Source: Parafrankia discariae
Lineage (GTDB): Bacteria > Actinomycetota > Actinomycetes > Frankiales > Frankiaceae
Assembly (NCBI RefSeq): GCF_000373365.1
Contig: NZ_KB891263.1
Location: forward strand, 1 to 42,297
Direction: 5' to 3'
Length of the DNA: 42,297 nt
A program made the translations under genes and the position numbers. The notes beneath the pieces were generated by a model. The model saw only the letters and a program-made list of their open reading frames with translations, was not told the origin of the DNA and did no database searches. Below are positions 377-10,131 of the stretch, piece after piece; positions within the stretch are counted from its first letter, which is position 1, and every line of letters begins with the position of its first letter.

Positions 377-586
377 TCAAATCAGTATCCCGGCAACCAG
401 AGTAACCAGGCCGGCGGCAGTAATTGCTAGAAATCCTTTCAGCATCACGGGGAAGTATCGATACTGCCTGTCCCTGAACGAGCTAGGGTCGACATCTCGC
501 TTGGTTCGGATCTGAACCGAACTGAAGAAAGCGCCGATAATGCCGCCGACTAGAATGCTGAGTCCGACGGATGTTGTCTGATTCAA
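377..586 (-). CDS. Small two-helix membrane protein, candidate immunity protein for the Rhs tip
   Basis: The 69-residue product has two hydrophobic stretches, about residues 7-23 (VGLSILVGGIIGAFFS) and 49-68 (LKGFLAITAAGLVTLVAGIL). They are joined by a charged loop (IRTKRDVDPSSFRDRQYRY), so both ends probably lie on the same side of the membrane. The chosen TTG start at 586 follows a strong GGAGGA site at 591-596; an in-frame TTG at 598 would place that site inside the gene. It starts 18 bases after the rhs stop on the same strand. A hand count gives about 51% GC over 421-600, far below its surroundings. I recognise no family. A small membrane protein right after a polymorphic toxin-like gene is the classic place for an immunity gene, so that role is inferred from position. 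It could instead be an unrelated small membrane protein. Confidence 0.6.
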   Translation of the reverse strand: MNQTTSVGLSILVGGIIGAFFSSVQIRTKRDVDPSSFRDRQYRYFPVMLKGFLAITAAGLVTLVAGILI

Positions 587-604
587 GGGTTCCTCCAAGA
601 ATGG

Positions 605-3600
605 CTAGCTCATGAGACCGTAGGCGGAGAATCCGGCCCCCGCAATGTTGGTCGCCAAGGAGTAACTATCCTGCAGCGATCCCTTTATGAAAGCCCCGCT
701 ACCGAAAGTCGCGAATGATATTGCGGCTCCCGCCACGGCCTTCCCGCATTCGCCGTCACTTCCGATGGTGCACTCGCTGACAGCCGCCGCTCCAGAGAGA
801 GCCATCGACACGGTGCCGGCAGGCGGAAAGAAGGGCGCCGCAAGAGATGTCGCGTCGCTCGCAAGACTCAGCACATCTCCTAGATCGGGGTCGGTAAAGA
901 CATCCTTGATGTCACCGAAAAGTGCGCCGGTGGGGTCGAGGTTGTTGGCGGGGTCGCCGCCGGCGTAGGTGTAGGGGTTGGCGCGGGTGGGGTCGTCGAT
1001 GGTGACGACGGAGTCGGTCTGGGTCCAGGTGGCCTGGTTGGGGTTGTAGTAGCGGAGGCCGATTTTGTACTGGCCGGTGTCGTCGAGGTATGCGCCGGCG
1101 AAGCGGTAGGGGTTGGTGGGCAGGGTGCCGCCGACGGCGGTAGCGGTGGCGGCTTCGCCGTAGGGGCCGTAGGTGTAGCGGGCCCGTTCGGCTCCGGAGC
1201 CGTCGATGAGTCCGACGACGTTGGCCTGGCCGTCGTAGACGTAATGGTAGGTGGTGGTGCTCCCGCCGCTGGGGACGAGCAGGGATATCAGGCCCCCGGC
1301 CGGATCACGTGCCACGTGCGTTGTCTGCCCGCCGGTGGTGAGACTATGCACGCCGAGAAGGCCGTTACGGAACGAGGTTCCACCGGCCTGGGTGCGCAGG
1401 ACGTTGGTGTCGCCGGCATAGGAGTAGGACGTGGCCGGTCCACCGGAGGTGACGGTGGTGGAGGTCTGCTGGTTCGCGCCGTTGTAGGCGAGAGTGTAAA
1501 GCTGCTGGTTACGGGTCTGGCTGCCCTCGCCGTTGTAGGTGAAGTTACCGACCCCGCCGCTCGGTAGCGGTGAACAGGGGGCGGAGGCGCCGGGGTTTGT
1601 GGTGGTGGTCCAGCAATGCTGGTTGCCGGAGTTGTACCCGTAGTAAGTGGTCGCGCCGGTGCCCTTTCGGGCGGAGAGCCGGTTGCCGGTGGCGTCGTAG
1701 GTGTAGACGAAGTCGTCCGCCGCGCCGTTGTTGAACCTGGTCAGACGTCCGGCGGTGTCGTAGGTGTAGGTGGCGACGAAGCCGGTGGCCAGGTCCTTGC
1801 GGCCCTGGATCTGGTTGCGGTCGGTGGTGCTGGAGGTGGTGCACGTCCCCGACGTGTACGGGGAGTAGCAGTACTCGTAGTCCATCACCCGGTTGGCGTC
1901 CGCGTCGCTGGAGGCGCGGGTCGTCCGGATGCGCTTCAGCCGGCCGCCGGTGTCGAAGGTGGTGTGGGTGTGCATCGCGAACGTGGTGGGTGGGGTGGAG
2001 GTGTTCGCCGAGGCCCAGGTGTCGACGCGGCGGCTGTCGGCGTCGTAGCCGAACACCGTCCGGTTGCCGGCCCGGTCGATCATGGTGGCGACGTTGTTGA
2101 CGTCGTCGTAGGTGTATGTGGTGGTGCCGCTGAGCTCGGTGACGGTGAGCAGGTTGGACGCCCCGTCGTAGGTGTAGCTGGTCGTGGAGCCGCCGGGGAG
2201 GGTCATCGAGGTGAGTCGGGACAGGCCGTCGTAGGCGTAGGTCGTCGTGCCGGAGGCGTCGACCCGCTCGGTCAGGTTGCCGGCGTGGTCGTAGTCGAAG
2301 GTGATGTCGGTGGTGGTGTCGGAGTAGTCGATCTCGGTGAGGCGGTCGTTGTTGGTGTAGGAGTAGTCGACCGTCACCCCGGTGCCCGTCACGATCTGGC
2401 GGACCCGTTCGCCGTTGTCGAAGTACACCCAGCGCTGGGCCAGGCTGTTGCCGGCGGGCGGATTGACCCGCAGGAGCTGCTTGGTGGTCACGCCGTTGTA
2501 AGTGGTCGTGCCGTAGGTGTAGGTGGTGGCGTTGCCGTTCGGGTCGGTCGAGGCGGCCGGCTGGCCGTCGGGGTTGTAGCTGATCTGGGCCTCGGCGCCG
2601 AAGGCGTTCTCGTTCGCGGTGATGTTGCCCGGGCCGTCGAAGGTGAACAGCGAGCGGTTCGCCGCCGGGTCGGAGGAGCACATCGGCTGGTGGGTCTGCG
2701 GGTTGGCGGGTGCCGGGGTGGCGGCGGGGCACGCCGGGTCGGTGTTGACGTAGCCGTACTTGGTGGTCGCGCCGAGCGGACCGGCGGTGGCGGTGAGGCT
2801 GCCGCCGTTGTTGTAGCCCCAGGTGTTGGTGAAGGTGCCGCCGATGGCGTTGGTCACCGAGCCGACCCGGGCCTGCGCGGTCCACGTGGTCGACCGGTCG
2901 TTGCCGTCGGCGTCCTCGACGGCTGTGACGCGGCTGCCGTAGTCGCGGTGCTCCACGGTGTAGACGGTCGCCTTCGACCGCGGGTCGGTGACCGTCCGGG
3001 TCGGGGGAGTCGCGGCGTCGTTGTAGGCGAACGTGGTGGTCAGGTTGACGCCGGCGCTGGGATGGCGGGTGATCGTGAGGACCCGGCCGGCGGTGTCGTA
3101 GGTGAAGTCCGTGGTCCGGCCGTCGGGATCCCAGAACTTGGACAGCTCACCGTTCGCCGAGCCGAAGGTGGTGTAGTCGTAGCTGCGCACCTCGCCGCCG
3201 GGGTCCGTCGAGTAGTCGAGGTTCCAGCCGGCGTAGTGGTAGGTGGCGGCCCGCCCGATGTGCGTGTCGGCCAGCGAGGTGAGGAAGTCCTTGCCGCTGG
3301 TCGGCTCGTTCGTGTACGCGGCCTGCGTGATCCGTCCACGGGTGTCCTTGATCGTGGAGAGGAAGCCCTCGGCGTAGCCGGGACGGGCCGCGTAGTCGAA
3401 CGTGGTCGTGTTGCCGTTGCGGTCGGTGGCCTTCCAGAGCTGGTAGACCAGGTTGAGGGGGTCGGTGGTGAACTTCTTGAAGACGTAGACCGTCTTCGAG
3501 TCGTCGAAGGTCAGCCGGTACTGGCCGGTCGCCGGCTGGTTCTTCTCCAGCTTCGCGTTGAGGCCCGGCGGGGTCGTGTAGGTGAGCCCGCCGTTGGACT

Positions 3601-5413
3601 CGAACACGTAGGGGGTGCCTGCCTCGTCGTGGAAGGTGGCGCCGTTGTGACTGGCGCCGTTCCCGTTCTCGAGGATGGAGACGCCGGTGGAGAGTTTCCA
3701 CCGGTTGAGGCCGAGCGGGGTGTCACCGGCGTTCTGGAAGACGGCAGCCTCGCCGGAGTTGTAGAACCGGGAGACGGTCAGCGGCCGGCCGACGCCGCCG
3801 ATCGCGTACTCGGCGCACTGGAGCAGCAGGTTGCCGTTGCCGACGTTGACGTTCGCGTCGCAGCGCGAGTCCAGCTTCTGGCCGACGAAGGTGTTGAACT
3901 CGCGGCTGCCCGTCTGGGACGTCCAGTCGACGACCATGGAGGGCCGCTGCGCGGCGTTCGTCGCCTGGGTCGAGGCGAACTGGACGACGCCGACCTGCGT
4001 CGATTCGTCCGCCTTGAGGATCAGCCCCTGGTTGGCGACGGTGCCGTTGACCCAGTCCTGGGCGAGCTTGCCCGCGTAGATGTCGAACTCGCCGGGGGTG
4101 CCGGTGACGTTCTTGACGTCGTAGGCGGCGCCGGCCCACGTGCCGCCGGTCCACGCTCCGCTGCCGCTGTTGTTCCAGGTGGCGGCAGTGGTCCAGCTCT
4201 GGCTCAGCCGGTGGAGGTACACGGGGAAGTTCGGCGAGGGCGACGACGCGCCGGTGACGGTGAGCTTGATGTCGGCGGTGGCGACCACGGCGTACTTCGG
4301 GATCGCGGAGAGGTCGAAGTTCATGAGCGTGCGCCGCTTGACCACGCCGTTCGGTGAGCCGCCGTGACCGATCTCCAGCAGGCCCGACGAACAGTAGTTC
4401 GCGGTGGCGTAGGGTCCGTCGACCACATAGCAGTCGGTGATCTGTGACGGGCCGATGGTGACGGTCGGGTCGACCGTCACGGGCCAGCTCCGGCCCCGGT
4501 CCGCGAGCCAGTCCTTCGCCACCGTCTGGGTGACGACGGTGGCGTTCGCCGGCAGCGGGTCCGGGCCCGGCGTGGCGGAGGGGGCGGGGGTGGCGGTGGC
4601 GGTGGCAGTGGGCGCGGGGGCCTCCGTGGCGGGCCGCAGGGTGCTCGCGACGGCGTCCCGGCCCGACAGGTTGTCGGCCCTGTCCTCCGCGAAGGCGGCC
4701 GGCAGGGTGAAGACGGGTTTGCCGTCCGTACCGGAGACGGCGACGCGCCCGTGGTCGAGCTTCGCGGTCAGGCCGGCCGAGGGTGTGATGGCGAAGGGGT
4801 AGGTCGTCGCGGCGCTCGCGCTGTCGAGCACCAGGGATTCCTTCACCCCGGTCGGGAGCACCGTGTAGACGAGGGTGACCCCGGGCAGCGCGTTCTTGTA
4901 GGTGACGGTCGACCCCTGGACCGACCCCTGCGCCGTCGAGCCGCGCAGCCGCATGTCGACCCATTTGTCACCGCTGGAGACGCGGACCGCTCCGTCGGCG
5001 AGGCTGCCGGGGAAGGCCGCACCGTAGCCGGCGGCCTTCGCCTGCCACCCGCCGCCCGTGGCGGCGGGGACGAGGGCGGTGTCGATCGGCTGCCAGGCGC
5101 CCCCGGCGTCCTTGTAGTGGATGGGCGCGGACGAGATCTCGGTCCGGTACACCCCGTCCGTCGACGCGACGGTCCGTGACGTGGCGGTCCGGAGGTCGAT
5201 CACCTCCCCGGACGCCGGCTTGCCGCTCATCCCGCCGGCGGGTGCCGGGCGTACCGATCCCTCGGTGGGGGCCTCGGTGAACGGTCGGGAGGGTGGAGCC
5301 GCCTGCGCGGCTGGAGAGATCAGGACGGGGAGGGTGAGACCGCCGAGGGCGACAAGGCCCGCCGTGACGGCCGCGAGCCTGTGTCGGACGGCCCGCTTCC
5401 TGGATTTTCGCAC
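605..5413 (-). CDS. Secreted Rhs/YD-repeat protein with DNRLRE domain and hydrophobic C-terminal tip
   Basis: About 1602 residues. The GTG start at 5413 is preferred over upstream in-frame starts because AGGGAG precedes it and it yields a clean signal peptide (RKSRKRAVRHR, a hydrophobic core, then SPAAQAA, residues 1-38). A DNRLRE-like beta domain spans about 324-494 (LMNFDLSAIP, W-T-A-A-T-W). A DUF6531-like start to the Rhs shell lies near 521-551 (NVGNGNLLL, RFYNS). Dozens of YD repeats follow (YTYDGASN, FDYDHAGN, YAYDGLSRL). The Rhs core is GLRYYNPNQATWTQTD and ends with NLDPTG near residue 1499. The last ~103 residues are a different, Gly/Ala/Ser-rich hydrophobic tip (SLAAPFFPPAGTVSMALSG, AVAGAAISFATFGSGAF). 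Such proteins form a shell around a C-terminal toxin. This tip shows no nuclease-like motif, and membrane insertion is a guess. The Sec signal suggests export to the cell surface. Confidence 0.88.
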   Translation of the reverse strand: MRKSRKRAVRHRLAAVTAGLVALGGLTLPVLISPAAQAAPPSRPFTEAPTEGSVRPAPAGGMSGKPASGEVIDLRTATSRTVASTDGVYRTEISSAPIHYKDAGGAWQPIDTALVPAATGGGWQAKAAGYGAAFPGSLADGAVRVSSGDKWVDMRLRGSTAQGSVQGSTVTYKNALPGVTLVYTVLPTGVKESLVLDSASAATTYPFAITPSAGLTAKLDHGRVAVSGTDGKPVFTLPAAFAEDRADNLSGRDAVASTLRPATEAPAPTATATATPAPSATPGPDPLPANATVVTQTVAKDWLADRGRSWPVTVDPTVTIGPSQITDCYVVDGPYATANYCSSGLLEIGHGGSPNGVVKRRTLMNFDLSAIPKYAVVATADIKLTVTGASSPSPNFPVYLHRLSQSWTTAATWNNSGSGAWTGGTWAGAAYDVKNVTGTPGEFDIYAGKLAQDWVNGTVANQGLILKADESTQVGVVQFASTQATNAAQRPSMVVDWTSQTGSREFNTFVGQKLDSRCDANVNVGNGNLLLQCAEYAIGGVGRPLTVSRFYNSGEAAVFQNAGDTPLGLNRWKLSTGVSILENGNGASHNGATFHDEAGTPYVFESNGGLTYTTPPGLNAKLEKNQPATGQYRLTFDDSKTVYVFKKFTTDPLNLVYQLWKATDRNGNTTTFDYAARPGYAEGFLSTIKDTRGRITQAAYTNEPTSGKDFLTSLADTHIGRAATYHYAGWNLDYSTDPGGEVRSYDYTTFGSANGELSKFWDPDGRTTDFTYDTAGRVLTITRHPSAGVNLTTTFAYNDAATPPTRTVTDPRSKATVYTVEHRDYGSRVTAVEDADGNDRSTTWTAQARVGSVTNAIGGTFTNTWGYNNGGSLTATAGPLGATTKYGYVNTDPACPAATPAPANPQTHQPMCSSDPAANRSLFTFDGPGNITANENAFGAEAQISYNPDGQPAASTDPNGNATTYTYGTTTYNGVTTKQLLRVNPPAGNSLAQRWVYFDNGERVRQIVTGTGVTVDYSYTNNDRLTEIDYSDTTTDITFDYDHAGNLTERVDASGTTTYAYDGLSRLTSMTLPGGSTTSYTYDGASNLLTVTELSGTTTYTYDDVNNVATMIDRAGNRTVFGYDADSRRVDTWASANTSTPPTTFAMHTHTTFDTGGRLKRIRTTRASSDADANRVMDYEYCYSPYTSGTCTTSSTTDRNQIQGRKDLATGFVATYTYDTAGRLTRFNNGAADDFVYTYDATGNRLSARKGTGATTYYGYNSGNQHCWTTTTNPGASAPCSPLPSGGVGNFTYNGEGSQTRNQQLYTLAYNGANQQTSTTVTSGGPATSYSYAGDTNVLRTQAGGTSFRNGLLGVHSLTTGGQTTHVARDPAGGLISLLVPSGGSTTTYHYVYDGQANVVGLIDGSGAERARYTYGPYGEAATATAVGGTLPTNPYRFAGAYLDDTGQYKIGLRYYNPNQATWTQTDSVVTIDDPTRANPYTYAGGDPANNLDPTGALFGDIKDVFTDPDLGDVLSLASDATSLAAPFFPPAGTVSMALSGAAAVSECTIGSDGECGKAVAGAAISFATFGSGAFIKGSLQDSYSLATNIAGAGFSAYGLMS

Positions 5414-5834: not shown

Positions 5835-6539
5835 TCAGCTGGCGATGTCGGGCCGCAGATCCAGGTCGGCGACGAGAGCCGCGATACGAGCGGCCTGGAC
5901 GCGGGTGGGAACGTTGAGTTTCCCCAGCAGGGACTGCATGTGGGTCTTTACGGTCGCCGGGCTGACACCCAGAATTCGGCCGATGTCCGCGTTGGAGCGG
6001 CCGGGCACCACCAGGAGGTCGAGCACCTGCCGCTCGCGCGGCGTGAGCAGCGCGACCTTGGCGGCGACGGGCTCCGGGAGGGCGACGAAGCTCTGCCGGA
6101 GCCGGGCGACCAGGAGCTCGCCGACCCGCGGGCTGAGCACGGCTCCGGTCCCGCCGGCCACGTCACGGATCGCCGCCTCGAGGCGGCCGTGCCGTACCTC
6201 GTCCTTGAACAGGAAGGCCGACGCGCCCGCGACCAGCGAACCGAGAATCTCGTTGGCGCCACGGGAATGGGCCGCCAGCAGAATGATCCGGGTGCCCGCG
6301 AGCAGCGGGTCCGCGGTGATCCACCGGATGGCGTCGAGGCCCCCGGCCTCGGGCAGCGCGAAGTCCAGGACAACCACGTCGGGACGCAGCCGGCGGGTCT
6401 CCGCCATCAGCCGGCGGCCGTCCGCCACATCCGCGAGAAGGTGCAGGTCAGGGGTCGCGTCAATGAGTTCCCGCAGACCCTGCCGTGCCAGGTAGTCGCC
6501 GTCGGCGAGCAGGACCGAAACGACCTCAGAAAGTTCCAT
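5835..6539 (-). CDS. Orphan NarL/LuxR-family response regulator
   Basis: A 234-residue two-domain regulator. The receiver domain (about 5-125) has the acidic pocket (LLADGDY), the phospho-acceptor Asp in VVVLDFALPEAGG and the conserved Lys in FLFKDE. The LuxR-type helix-turn-helix (about 170-228) is unmistakable: LTPRERQVLDLLV, SNADIGRILGVSPATVKTHM. The ATG at 6539 is chosen because GGAGA lies six bases upstream and the receiver fold starts straight away; the open frame runs on to 6707 but adds no recognisable domain. No histidine kinase is adjacent, so its partner must be elsewhere or it acts without one. It diverges from the lytic transglycosylase at 7107, making that gene or itself a plausible target, though nothing in the sequence proves this. 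Confidence 0.88.
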   Translation of the reverse strand: MELSEVVSVLLADGDYLARQGLRELIDATPDLHLLADVADGRRLMAETRRLRPDVVVLDFALPEAGGLDAIRWITADPLLAGTRIILLAAHSRGANEILGSLVAGASAFLFKDEVRHGRLEAAIRDVAGGTGAVLSPRVGELLVARLRQSFVALPEPVAAKVALLTPRERQVLDLLVVPGRSNADIGRILGVSPATVKTHMQSLLGKLNVPTRVQAARIAALVADLDLRPDIAS

Positions 6540-7106
6540 CGAGATCTCCGCTCGAGGTCGCTTCCCGCCGCGGTGACGCACCTGGACCGGCGTCCCTGGA
6601 CCAGCCAGTCTGAACCCGCATCGGACTCGGTTCCATCCTTGTTCAGTGAGCGGAGCGACTGCTGCGACGACGAGCTGTGCCGTCCTTGTGACGCAGGCGA
6701 GCATCACACACGAAAAGTTGCGGCGTCCACTCGTTGCGCAACCTTTGTTCGGTTGATACGTTGCTGCGCGTCGAGAGTTCTCGGTGCCGGGTCAATGACG
6801 ATCTCCAGTACCCATGAGATCGTTACTCTGCGTTGTCTGGTATTCGTTGCGCTGAAAGTGTGACGGTTATCTCGCGGAGGTAACGGTAACCCTGAAACCC
6901 CGCGTGCCGACGAACGGCCATCGGGGGAATCGCGGACCCTACGCGTCAGCCCGCTCCGCCCCTCCGGACGGGTTGGCGCGTAGCCCGTTCCAATCATAGG
7001 AAAAGCGCTTCGGCATCGTCGACGGACGCGACTGAAGCGCTGTTCCGTCCGTGGTGTGTAGCTGCGCCCACGTAGCAGTCCCGCTTGTGAGGAAAGGTGG
7101 CTTTCG
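6540..7106. promoter_or_regulatory. 567-base divergent spacer with a strong hairpin
   Basis: This gene-free stretch separates the minus-strand response regulator from the plus-strand transglycosylase, so it should hold both promoters. It contains a 10-bp palindrome GTTGCGCAAC (6733-6742), tandem GGTAAC hexamers near 6880, and a 13-bp helix with two G-U pairs between 6941-6953 (ACGCGTCAGCCCG) and 6969-6981 (CGGGTTGGCGCGT). The helix begins 166 bases before the transglycosylase start and would sit in a long 5' leader. Cell-wall hydrolase genes of actinomycetes often carry structured leaders such as the c-di-AMP switch, but the conserved blocks of that switch are not recognisable here. GAGGAAAGG at about 7090 is the ribosome site. 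Confidence 0.5.
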
Positions 7107-8537
<1,431 letters not shown>

Positions 8538-8598: not shown

Positions 8599-10131
8599 TC
8601 AGGCTGAGGAGGCCGGCTCCGTGGCTGACTCGTGCGGTGCGGGTTCCTCGTGCGGCGCGGCCTCGGCGGGCATCAGCGGGTCGGGGTGCAGCGGCAGGGT
8701 CACCCGGAACCGGGTGTCGCCGGGCTGCGAGGTCACGGTCAGGTCGCCGTGGTGGCGGCCGACGACGATGCGCCAGGAGATGTCCAGCCCGAGGCCGGTG
8801 CCCTCGCCGACCGGCTTCGTGGTGAAGAACGGCTCGAAGATGCGGTCGCGGATCTCCGGCGGCACGCCGGGCCCGGTGTCCCGGATCTCGACGGCCAGGT
8901 TGTCGTGGTCCGCCGAGGTGGCGACGGTCAGCGTCCCCGAGCCGGCCATCGCGGCGACCGCGTTGTCGATGAGGTTCGTCCAGACCTGGTTGAGCTCGCC
9001 GGCGTAGACCGCGATCTCGGGCAGCGCCCGGTCGTACTCGCGGACCACCCGCACCCCGGACAGCTTCCCGCCGAGCATCGTCAGGGTGCTGTCCAGCAGC
9101 TCGTGGATGTCGACGCTGCGGTACGGCGCCCGGTCGAGCTGGGAGTACTGCTTGGCCGCCCCGAGCAGGGTGGAGATCCGGGTGGTGGAGTCCTCGATCT
9201 CCTTCATCAGCAGTTCGCTCTCGACCGTGTAGTACAGCCAGCGGATCGCGCCCTCCAGCACCTCCGGCGCCACCGTCGCCGCGACCCGCTCCAGCCAGTC
9301 GACGTCGAAGCCCGCCTGGACGAACGTCGGCGCGATCTCCCACCCGGCGTTGCAGCCGTGGTCCTCCAGCCAGTCGGTCAGGGCGTCCTCGCGGTCGCTG
9401 GTCTCCATCGGGGTCAGCGTCGGGGCCTTCGCCACCCGCTCGGCGGCCTCCTCCTGCAGGCCGATCAGGGTCTCCAGCGCCTCGCGGTCGTACGGCCCGG
9501 CGGCGATCAGGCCGAGCTTGTGCCGCATGCCGGCGACCCGCTCGCGCAGCGACGCCGTGGCCCGCACCGCGGCGGCCGCCGGGTTGTTGAGCTCATGGGT
9601 CAGCCCGGCGGACAGCGAGCCGAGCGCCAGCAGCCGCTCCCGCTGGCCGGTGAGCGCCTGGGTGCTCTGCAGGCCGAAGAACAGCCCCTCCAGCATGTGG
9701 ACGGCCATCGGGAACCACTCGCGCATCAGCCGCGCCAGCGCCGCGCCGTCCAGTACGACGAACCGGGACGGGATCGTGACCCGCATCGAGTTGGTGTAGA
9801 GCTGCGGGACGCGGTCGCCCAGGTAGGAGTGCCACGCCCCGGAGTACACCCCGCTCTGGGTCGTCCGGCTGACCTCGACGTCGTCGTCGCCGACCCGCCT
9901 GGTCAGCACCAGGCCGCCCTCGACCAGCACGTAGAAGCAGGTGGCCGGCTCGCCCTCGCGGAACACGACGCCCGGCTCGATCAGCTCGACGTGGCCGTTG
10001 CGGCAGATCCAGTCGAGCTGGTCGTCGGTGAGCTTCTCGAACAGGAACAGCGTGCGCAGCTCGTCGAGGTCGCAGGGCATCTGCCGGCCCTGGCCGCAGG
10101 CCTGGGTGGCGCCGTCAGCGTCGTCCGCCAT
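8599..10131 (-). CDS. Cyclic-nucleotide-binding-domain histidine kinase
   Basis: A 510-residue soluble sensor kinase with no membrane segment. Residues about 20-140 form a cNMP-binding (Crp-like) domain (LFLFEKLTDDQLDWI, FREGEPATCFYVLVEGG). The phospho-acceptor is His179 in SAGLTHELNNPAAA. A helical region carries several acidic stretches, and the HATPase domain (about 375-485) has the N-box NQVWTNLIDNAVAAM, G1 DTGPGVPP and FEPFFTTKPVGEGTGLGL. The short C-terminal tail is Glu/His/Pro-rich. It lies 88 bases downstream of the receiver-flavoprotein fusion on the same strand, and that neighbour carries a receiver domain, so the two plausibly form a cytoplasmic phosphorelay. The ligand is unknown; similar domains in kinases of this type need not bind cyclic nucleotides. 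Confidence 0.88.
   Translation of the reverse strand: MADDADGATQACGQGRQMPCDLDELRTLFLFEKLTDDQLDWICRNGHVELIEPGVVFREGEPATCFYVLVEGGLVLTRRVGDDDVEVSRTTQSGVYSGAWHSYLGDRVPQLYTNSMRVTIPSRFVVLDGAALARLMREWFPMAVHMLEGLFFGLQSTQALTGQRERLLALGSLSAGLTHELNNPAAAAVRATASLRERVAGMRHKLGLIAAGPYDREALETLIGLQEEAAERVAKAPTLTPMETSDREDALTDWLEDHGCNAGWEIAPTFVQAGFDVDWLERVAATVAPEVLEGAIRWLYYTVESELLMKEIEDSTTRISTLLGAAKQYSQLDRAPYRSVDIHELLDSTLTMLGGKLSGVRVVREYDRALPEIAVYAGELNQVWTNLIDNAVAAMAGSGTLTVATSADHDNLAVEIRDTGPGVPPEIRDRIFEPFFTTKPVGEGTGLGLDISWRIVVGRHHGDLTVTSQPGDTRFRVTLPLHPDPLMPAEAAPHEEPAPHESATEPASSA

Follow-up and report, generated by a model that had tools for sequence, protein, structure and literature searches.

A putative membrane toxin and its candidate immunity protein on a Sec-exported Rhs protein of Parafrankia discariae

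Introduction

What does an exported Rhs protein carry when its variable C-terminal tip is short and directly followed by a gene for a tiny membrane protein? This question is raised by a locus of the actinomycete Parafrankia discariae (assembly GCF_000373365.1, contig NZ_KB891263.1), which we analysed within positions 1 to 42,297 of the contig, a stretch of 42,297 nucleotides hereafter called the window. In many known cases the tip of an exported polymorphic toxin works as an enzyme in the cytosol, which raises the question of how the target membrane is crossed. Small membrane-acting tips would avoid that problem if our reading of this locus is true, and they would link bacteriocins and polymorphic toxins, two fields kept apart.

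An initial annotation of the window had proposed that the tip and the small protein form a toxin-immunity pair. Our analysis supports this proposal: the locus probably encodes an Rhs cage that is exported by Sec and carries a polymorphic toxin-immunity cassette, with a putative membrane toxin and a putative membrane immunity protein. This is suggested by the swap of the tip relative to Frankia tisae, by the foreign composition shared by the tip and the small gene, by the pattern found across the family and by orphan cassettes. A comparable case has been described in Tse5, an Rhs tip without a predicted enzyme that forms membrane pores and is neutralised by Tsi5, an immunity protein with two predicted transmembrane (TM) regions (PMC9637101).

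Results

The Rhs protein, its tip and the small gene

The Rhs open reading frame (ORF) lies on the minus strand and spans 5629-605 if counted from the first ATG, or 5413-605 if counted from a GTG. The GTG appears to be the likelier start, because the signal peptide MRKSRKRAVRHRLAAVTAGLVALGGLTLPVLISPAAQA begins there; we recognised this peptide by eye, and an N-terminus script flags the same place. Family scans of the protein detected RHS repeats, DUF6531, DNRLRE, YD repeats and Rhs_assc_core, and the succession of YD/RHS repeats, Rhs_assc_core and a variable C-terminal tip is the layout of an Rhs polymorphic toxin. Solved Rhs structures, including the Tse5 chain 8cp6, match the body and core in a sequence search of the Protein Data Bank (PDB). 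On the other hand, Pfam and NCBIfam scans revealed no PAAR-like type VI loading domain, the N-terminal part consisting of the Sec signal and DNRLRE.

The core ends at NLDPTG, as the initial annotation had read it. Both aspartate columns of the C-terminal plug are invariant in the 12 of 12 cores that we aligned (alignment A1), and the pattern Q-(x)-D-x18-27-D-x2-G is present in 77 of the 83 cores of the survey described below. Compared with plugs of the DPxG-x18-DPxG type, the window plug has TDSV in place of the first DPxG and a longer spacer between the aspartates. In Rhs proteins elsewhere, two plug aspartates are described as severing the tip, which remains caged (PMC10684867), and by analogy with Tse5 and other Rhs proteins the window Rhs would be cut in the same way.

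The tip behind NLDPTG is rich in glycine, alanine and serine, as first noted, and measures 106 residues (925-608) rather than about 103. It contains two cysteines spaced C-x7-C (SECTIGSDGECGK), which the initial annotation did not mention and which are the signature of the family, and it contains neither arginine nor tryptophan. The gene of the small protein, hereafter the partner, starts with a TTG at 586, 18 bases past the Rhs stop, and is preceded by a GGAGGA site at 596-591. Its AlphaFold2 model, computed from the single sequence, is a plain hairpin with helices at residues 4-32 and 34-68 and a predicted local distance difference test (pLDDT) score of 74.8; the 69-residue two-helix membrane protein read from the sequence thus agrees with its predicted structure.

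The GC content at third codon positions (GC3) is 0.941 in the Rhs body and falls to 0.651 in the tip and 0.594 in the partner, while the lowest 318-bp window of the body still reaches 0.811. Since this drop is common to the tip and the partner, and since the tip is swapped relative to F. tisae, the two look like one acquired cassette.

The swap is seen at a locus of F. tisae (L059; L160 is on the same contig) that corresponds to that of the window, because a matching response regulator stands upstream of both (60% identity over 239 residues). The Rhs bodies are 79-84% identical at the DNA level, and the last 1500 nucleotides of the body show 76-89% identity per 75-nucleotide block, two blocks being shortened by gaps. 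The last 75 nucleotides of the core (window 926-1000, minus strand) match L059 6421-6495 at 74 of 75 positions. Past the junction, the ungapped sequences agree at 32 of 105 positions. Recombination at the core end would be expected to leave such a sharp break, and the nearly identical block before it may reflect either a recent crossover or a strong constraint on the last 75 nucleotides.

Searches for relatives of the tip and the partner

We found neither the tip nor the partner outside this genome in convincing form. Pfam and NCBIfam scans gave no family above the cut-off for either sequence. The genome searches scored at most 12 or 17 candidates per genome, and all genome counts given here are therefore lower bounds. 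Among relatives, the tip had matches at E-values up to 0.1 in at least 16 of 58 genomes, its own included. Besides the tip itself these were 20 weak matches, and none of the 15 that we inspected by eye is an Rhs tip; they include several histidine kinases, two acyl-CoA dehydrogenase-like sequences and others that look non-coding (L011, L014, L017, L013 and L022 lie outside the 15). Across the class, at least 2 of 393 genomes matched at 0.001, namely the own genome and one in which the match is not an Rhs tip. The tip had no match in the genome_contigs, plasmid and viral contig searches, and matched no PDB chain at E-values up to 10.

The partner was found in at least one of 97 genomes of relatives, namely its own, and in at least 4 of 393 class genomes, these being its own and three with weak matches inside frames of 344-657 residues; the plasmid and viral contig searches gave no match. 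Three weak class matches aside, the relatives, class, plasmid and viral searches thus yielded no convincing homologue of the partner outside its own genome, and homologues standing mostly away from Rhs genes, which would speak against an immunity role, did not come to light. The exact pair of tip and partner was found only in its own genome. Since neither has a convincing relative, we surveyed the plan of the tips by means of the core instead.

Survey of actinomycete Rhs cores

A query made of the last 165 core residues found 36 loci in named genomes, and 12 aligned actinomycete cores, that of the window among them, gave the profile A1. With this profile the core subfamily was found in at least 27 of 296 class genomes, the window genome included, and in at least 23 of 220 genomes of the family of G287, some genomes being common to both searches. 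The survey loci, numbered with the prefix L, are all places listed by either of the two profile searches, whereas the window's own locus was taken directly. Survey core matches score at least 83 bits; the window core scores 225 bits but is itself one of the aligned rows. Since the profile extends no further than DPTG, the tips are unselected.

Two counts were made. The full count comprises unique tips of 40-200 residues behind cores of at least 25 bits and leaves out L159 and L160, which overlap L125 and share a contig with L059, respectively. The de-replicated set starts from 82 unique tips in 31 clusters and takes one tip per cluster, 28 of them having at least 40 residues; L059, L130 and L157 are dropped (tips below 40 residues), as is L160. 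L094 is in neither count, its match covering query residues 56-89 only and its frame showing no core end. L070-L093 and L023-L052 were analysed apart from the survey.

The 83 unique tips of the full count are 48-127 residues long (median 82), mostly hydrophobic, rich in glycine and alanine, and mostly unrelated in sequence. Two cysteines occur in 68 of them, four in 11, three in 1 and none in 3, so that the number is even in 82 of 83; among the 28 representatives two are found in 23, three in 1 and four in 4. By comparison, 64% of random body segments of equal length have no cysteine. An even number is what paired cysteines would give, and the tips probably contain disulfides. Of 49 long frames, 32 have a signal-like N-terminus, as against none of 49 internal control stretches, and many survey proteins should therefore reach an oxidising place. 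The initial view of a Sec-exported Rhs protein as unusual in an actinomycete finds no support in these figures or in the occurrence of the core subfamily in at least 27 of 296 class genomes.

Hydrophobicity also sets the tips apart. The best Kyte-Doolittle 19-residue window (KD19) has a median of 1.63 in the representative tips and of 0.13 in body segments, and a value of at least 1.2 is reached by 86% of the former and 4% of the latter. The variety of the tips and the sharp change at the junction led us to reject the possibility that the tip is a conserved end of the Rhs shell.

Behind the tips, small TM genes are frequent. Under strict rules (36-130 residues, a ribosome-binding site of at least 4 bases, a start at -20 to +200 and a KD19 of at least 2.0) a TM ORF follows 16 of 28 representatives and 16 of 432 stops of other long ORFs; such ORFs were absent from all 26 positions taken 600 bases away and present at 1 of 28 on the opposite strand. 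Under relaxed rules the numbers are 21 of 28 versus 27 of 423 control stops at a KD19 of 1.8, and 18 of 28 versus 24 of 423 at 2.0. In the full count, 69 of the 83 unique tips have a TM ORF at a KD19 of 1.8. For one family of four partners, 360 codons were compared; differences number 107, 82 and 186 at the first, second and third codon position, respectively, and this excess at the third position argues that those small ORFs are real genes. Scans of family libraries with 26 tips and 20 partners gave just isolated weak single matches.

Some tips depart from the common form. L166 (two tips) and L189 have hydrophobic mini-tips without cysteine, yet TM ORFs of 41-62 residues stand behind them. 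A second tip type of 96-102 residues with four cysteines occurs at L064, L067, L068, L129, L137, L174, L177, L181 and L192; by eye it looks glycine-rich and strand-like rather than helical (CYFACVG...SCSAPG...YGC), and a tiny TM ORF follows it in 4 of 9 cases.

Orphan cassettes and pairing

Behind a full Rhs gene with its tip and TM gene, L168 has three partial cores of 96-113 residues, and every one of them carries a separate two-cysteine tip and TM ORF. One such cassette with a TM ORF stands behind the main gene at L188, L152, L166 and L126, and one farther off (about 3.6 kb) at L069, while L149 and L156 have two partial ones each. The cassette of L125 has no TM ORF that we could find, and at L184 and L153 the cassette ends in a stub, of 39 and 30 residues, respectively. 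Partial-core cassettes with other tips are a signature of polymorphic toxins, and the cassettes appear to be mobile.

The tip of the full-length Rhs protein at L125 and that of the orphan cassette at L126 are 85% identical and their partners 57%, while the cores share 60% identity over the last 60 residues. This pair comes close to the co-occurrence of one type of tip and partner under different Rhs bodies. More generally, among pairs of loci with both genes, the partners are similar in 7 of 76 pairs with similar tips and in 2 of 2270 other pairs. An association between tip and partner therefore appears to be present, most similar tips having partners too diverged to align.

Discussion

We propose that the Rhs barrel is exported by Sec and that its chain is severed behind DPTG by the pair of plug aspartates, the short tip staying caged until contact. 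Outside the cell, the tip cysteines would form a disulfide that staples a helical hairpin, and the released tip would enter the cytoplasmic membrane of a competitor lacking the partner and dissipate its membrane potential. In the membrane of the producer, the 69-residue two-helix protein would block the tip. Gram-positive targets have their membrane open to the exterior, and the tip would therefore reach it without an injection system.

Several observations weigh against this model or limit it. The tip, described at first as hydrophobic, is only moderately so, its best KD19 of 1.32 lying below the family median, and its predicted structure is unusable (pLDDT 47.8, no confident fold), in contrast to that of the partner. 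Since neither sequence has a convincing homologue, the coding nature and the pairing of the window tip and partner are suggested by composition, ribosome-binding site and analogy. Past the junction, a gapped alignment pairs 30 of 54 and 13 of 30 positions with F. tisae, which we take as alignment noise. At the F. tisae locus itself, the tip is a stub of 35 residues, the body is broken into two frames and the listed candidates include no small TM ORF; the module is therefore not always kept. In the survey, 7 of 28 representatives (L144, L064, L177, L131, L139, L158 and L190) have no TM ORF even under relaxed rules, 3 of the 83 tips lack cysteine, and the partners are not detectably similar in 69 of the 76 pairs with similar tips. 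Gene order, signal peptide, core, plug aspartates, tip swap and foreign composition can be read from the sequence, as can the even-cysteine signature, the tiny membrane partners across the family and the orphan cassettes; cleavage, disulfide formation, membrane insertion, killing and immunity are what we infer from them.

The tip plan also has a border. Among cores below 60 bits a small TM ORF follows 3 of 17, and among 27 non-actinomycete cores (mostly from relatives of Paenibacillus and Caulobacter, up to 81 bits), whose tips are 101-436 residues long, it follows 2. A short tip with a TM partner as a general property of all Rhs proteins was rejected on these numbers. Four actinomycete cores outside the survey (L023, L027, L043 and L051, 61-75 bits) also count against a wide class, with tips of 98-234 residues, cysteine numbers of 3, 5, 4 and 5, respectively, and no small TM ORF. 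These may mark the border: they narrow the class and leave the evidence at the window untouched. The plan thus appears to belong to the closer part of the core subfamily and to fade beyond it, and not to all cores above 60 bits. Behind the core of L027 we noticed a larger membrane-like frame.

Among the alternatives, the main one is that the tip acts at the target membrane without forming a pore and instead recognises a receptor there or a precursor of the cell wall (for example lipid II), the small protein shielding this receptor in the producer. Receptor-dependent bacteriocins would be just as compatible with the small size, the cysteine pairs and the tiny membrane partners, and some survey tips are hardly hydrophobic, such as those of L137 (KD19 0.79) and L154 (0.64). 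Moreover, the ionophores of contact-dependent growth inhibition (CDI) are described as using membrane-protein receptors (PMC11630599). We consider this explanation unlikely but worth keeping in mind, given that the great majority of the 28 representative tips (86% with a KD19 of at least 1.2) might insert unaided and that no receptor-binding domain was recognised.

The tip might instead be the hydrophobic pre-toxin or translocation segment left over from a longer Rhs toxin that has lost its catalytic end, with the small membrane gene standing there incidentally. L029, L034, L045 and L046 do show a hydrophobic stretch rich in glycine and alanine after the core and then a longer region; in addition, the contig ends close to the window gene, and the F. 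tisae tip is a stub. However, short tips are the norm among the closer relatives (83 tips of 48-127 residues, 69 with a small TM ORF), and neither a conserved cysteine parity nor the TM ORF would survive random truncation. A remnant is improbable in the light of these regularities.

It is also conceivable that the tip serves to attach the Rhs cage to the producer membrane, in it or on it, with the small protein as docking partner and no toxin involved, since hydrophobic C-termini can anchor proteins and the partner is predicted in the membrane; yet an anchor should be conserved, while the 82 unique tips fall into 31 clusters, the sequence changes sharply at the junction and tandem cassettes carry only a partial core, which makes this very improbable. 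Least credible is chance or decay, that is, a tip read from an out-of-place frame and a small ORF that is no gene: both lack a convincing homologue in the collections searched and differ from the body in codon usage, but the small TM ORF follows 21 of 28 tips versus 27 of 423 control stops, the ribosome-binding site is good and one partner family shows its third-position excess.

The toxin-immunity reading has counterparts in known systems. Tse5 and Tsi5 of Pseudomonas aeruginosa combine an Rhs cage with an aspartyl-protease plug, a C-terminal membrane-acting tip for which no enzyme is predicted and an immunity protein with two predicted TM regions, a combination that we propose for the window as well; they differ in type VI secretion, the Gram-negative cell and a tip of about 16 kDa (PMC9637101, PMC10684867). 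Instead, the window system belongs to an actinomycete and has a Sec signal, its family has tips of 48-127 residues with paired cysteines, and its tip matches no solved chain, the whole-tip content of the deposited Tse5 chains being unchecked. It would therefore work like Tse5/Tsi5 without being a member, having no type VI domain, no similarity of the tip and a shorter tip.

CdiA-CT ionophores and their CdiI proteins are likewise described as polymorphic tips that dissipate the membrane potential and as highly variable cognate immunity proteins, unlike the window in their CdiA carrier in E. coli, a predicted five-helix ionophore with a separate entry domain and the absence of an Rhs cage (PMC11630599). 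The Caulobacter Cdz system (CdzC, CdzD, CdzI) has glycine-zipper proteins of 86 and 84 residues, contact killing and a small transmembrane immunity protein; in contrast, it uses type I secretion, two proteins and no Rhs carrier, and the word disulfide is absent from the main text of its description (PMC5380434). EsxX of Staphylococcus aureus has a glycine-zipper, membrane-depolarising C-terminus and dedicated immunity families, but an LXG carrier and type VII secretion (PMC12744356). Finally, the classification of Zhang et al. (2012) includes a pore-forming tip on Rhs, Tox-WTIP, and the two-TM immunity families Imm-CdiI and Imm17, where Tox-WTIP is recorded from proteobacteria and bears the motifs RxxR and Wx[ST]IP on a pair of membrane helices (PMC3482391). 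These motifs are not in the window tip. In the open-licence literature, with preprints outside this scope, no listed title or opening of an abstract mentions two-cysteine membrane tips on exported actinobacterial Rhs proteins. Membrane-acting tips and small toxins with membrane immunity are already known (CDI, Cdz, EsxX), and what appears to be new here is the actinomycete class with even-cysteine mini-tips.

Altogether, we lean slightly towards a broader proposal, namely a large and hypervariable class of actinomycete membrane toxins, miniature in size, caged by Rhs and stapled by cystines, in effect caged bacteriocins, each with a tiny membrane immunity protein (35-115 residues). Such a class would need no injection machine and may descend from a hydrophobic translocation segment of an Rhs toxin that turned into a toxin. 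The even number of cysteines and the tiny membrane partner would together serve as a simple rule by which to search Streptomyces, Actinomadura, Frankia and other actinomycetes for candidate toxin-immunity pairs.

Neighbouring genes and other observations

The features of the locus are collected in Table 1.

Table 1. Coordinates of the locus in the window
Feature	Position	Strand	Remark
Partner: 69-residue protein with two predicted TM helices, proposed cognate immunity protein	377..586	-	TTG start
GGAGGA ribosome-binding site of the small gene	591..596	-	direct sequence reading
Variable tip, 106 residues, Gly/Ala/Ser-rich, proposed membrane-active toxin	608..925	-	sequence, composition, survey
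Plug at the C-terminal end of the core, with both aspartates of the putative Rhs autoprotease site (TQTD ... NLDPTG)	926..1024	-	alignment A1, survey pattern
Rhs body (Sec signal peptide, DNRLRE, DUF6531, YD/RHS repeats, Rhs_assc_core)	926..5413	-	ends at NLDPTG
Response regulator (LuxR type by eye, from sequence)	5835..6707	-	upstream of the Rhs gene

The contig ends at window position 1, 376 bases past the partner, and nothing can be read farther downstream. A frame at 1-240 on the plus strand, ending in ...YPRAIRRGRHNAYRVKRPTDTGTRHDRPATIILARAA* at the contig end, resembles the C-terminus of an IS4-type transposase; a Pfam scan of 63 residues gave no match. An insertion element at this place would explain why the contig stops there.

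The same genome has a second Rhs core (L194, G000 contig C173:171982-172395) with a tip of about 227 residues and no cysteine, behind which no small membrane ORF was found. Upstream of the Rhs locus in the window, we recognised by eye a lytic-transglycosylase-like secreted protein at 7107-8537 on the plus strand and a cyclic-nucleotide-binding, sensor-kinase-like protein at 8599-10131 on the minus strand.

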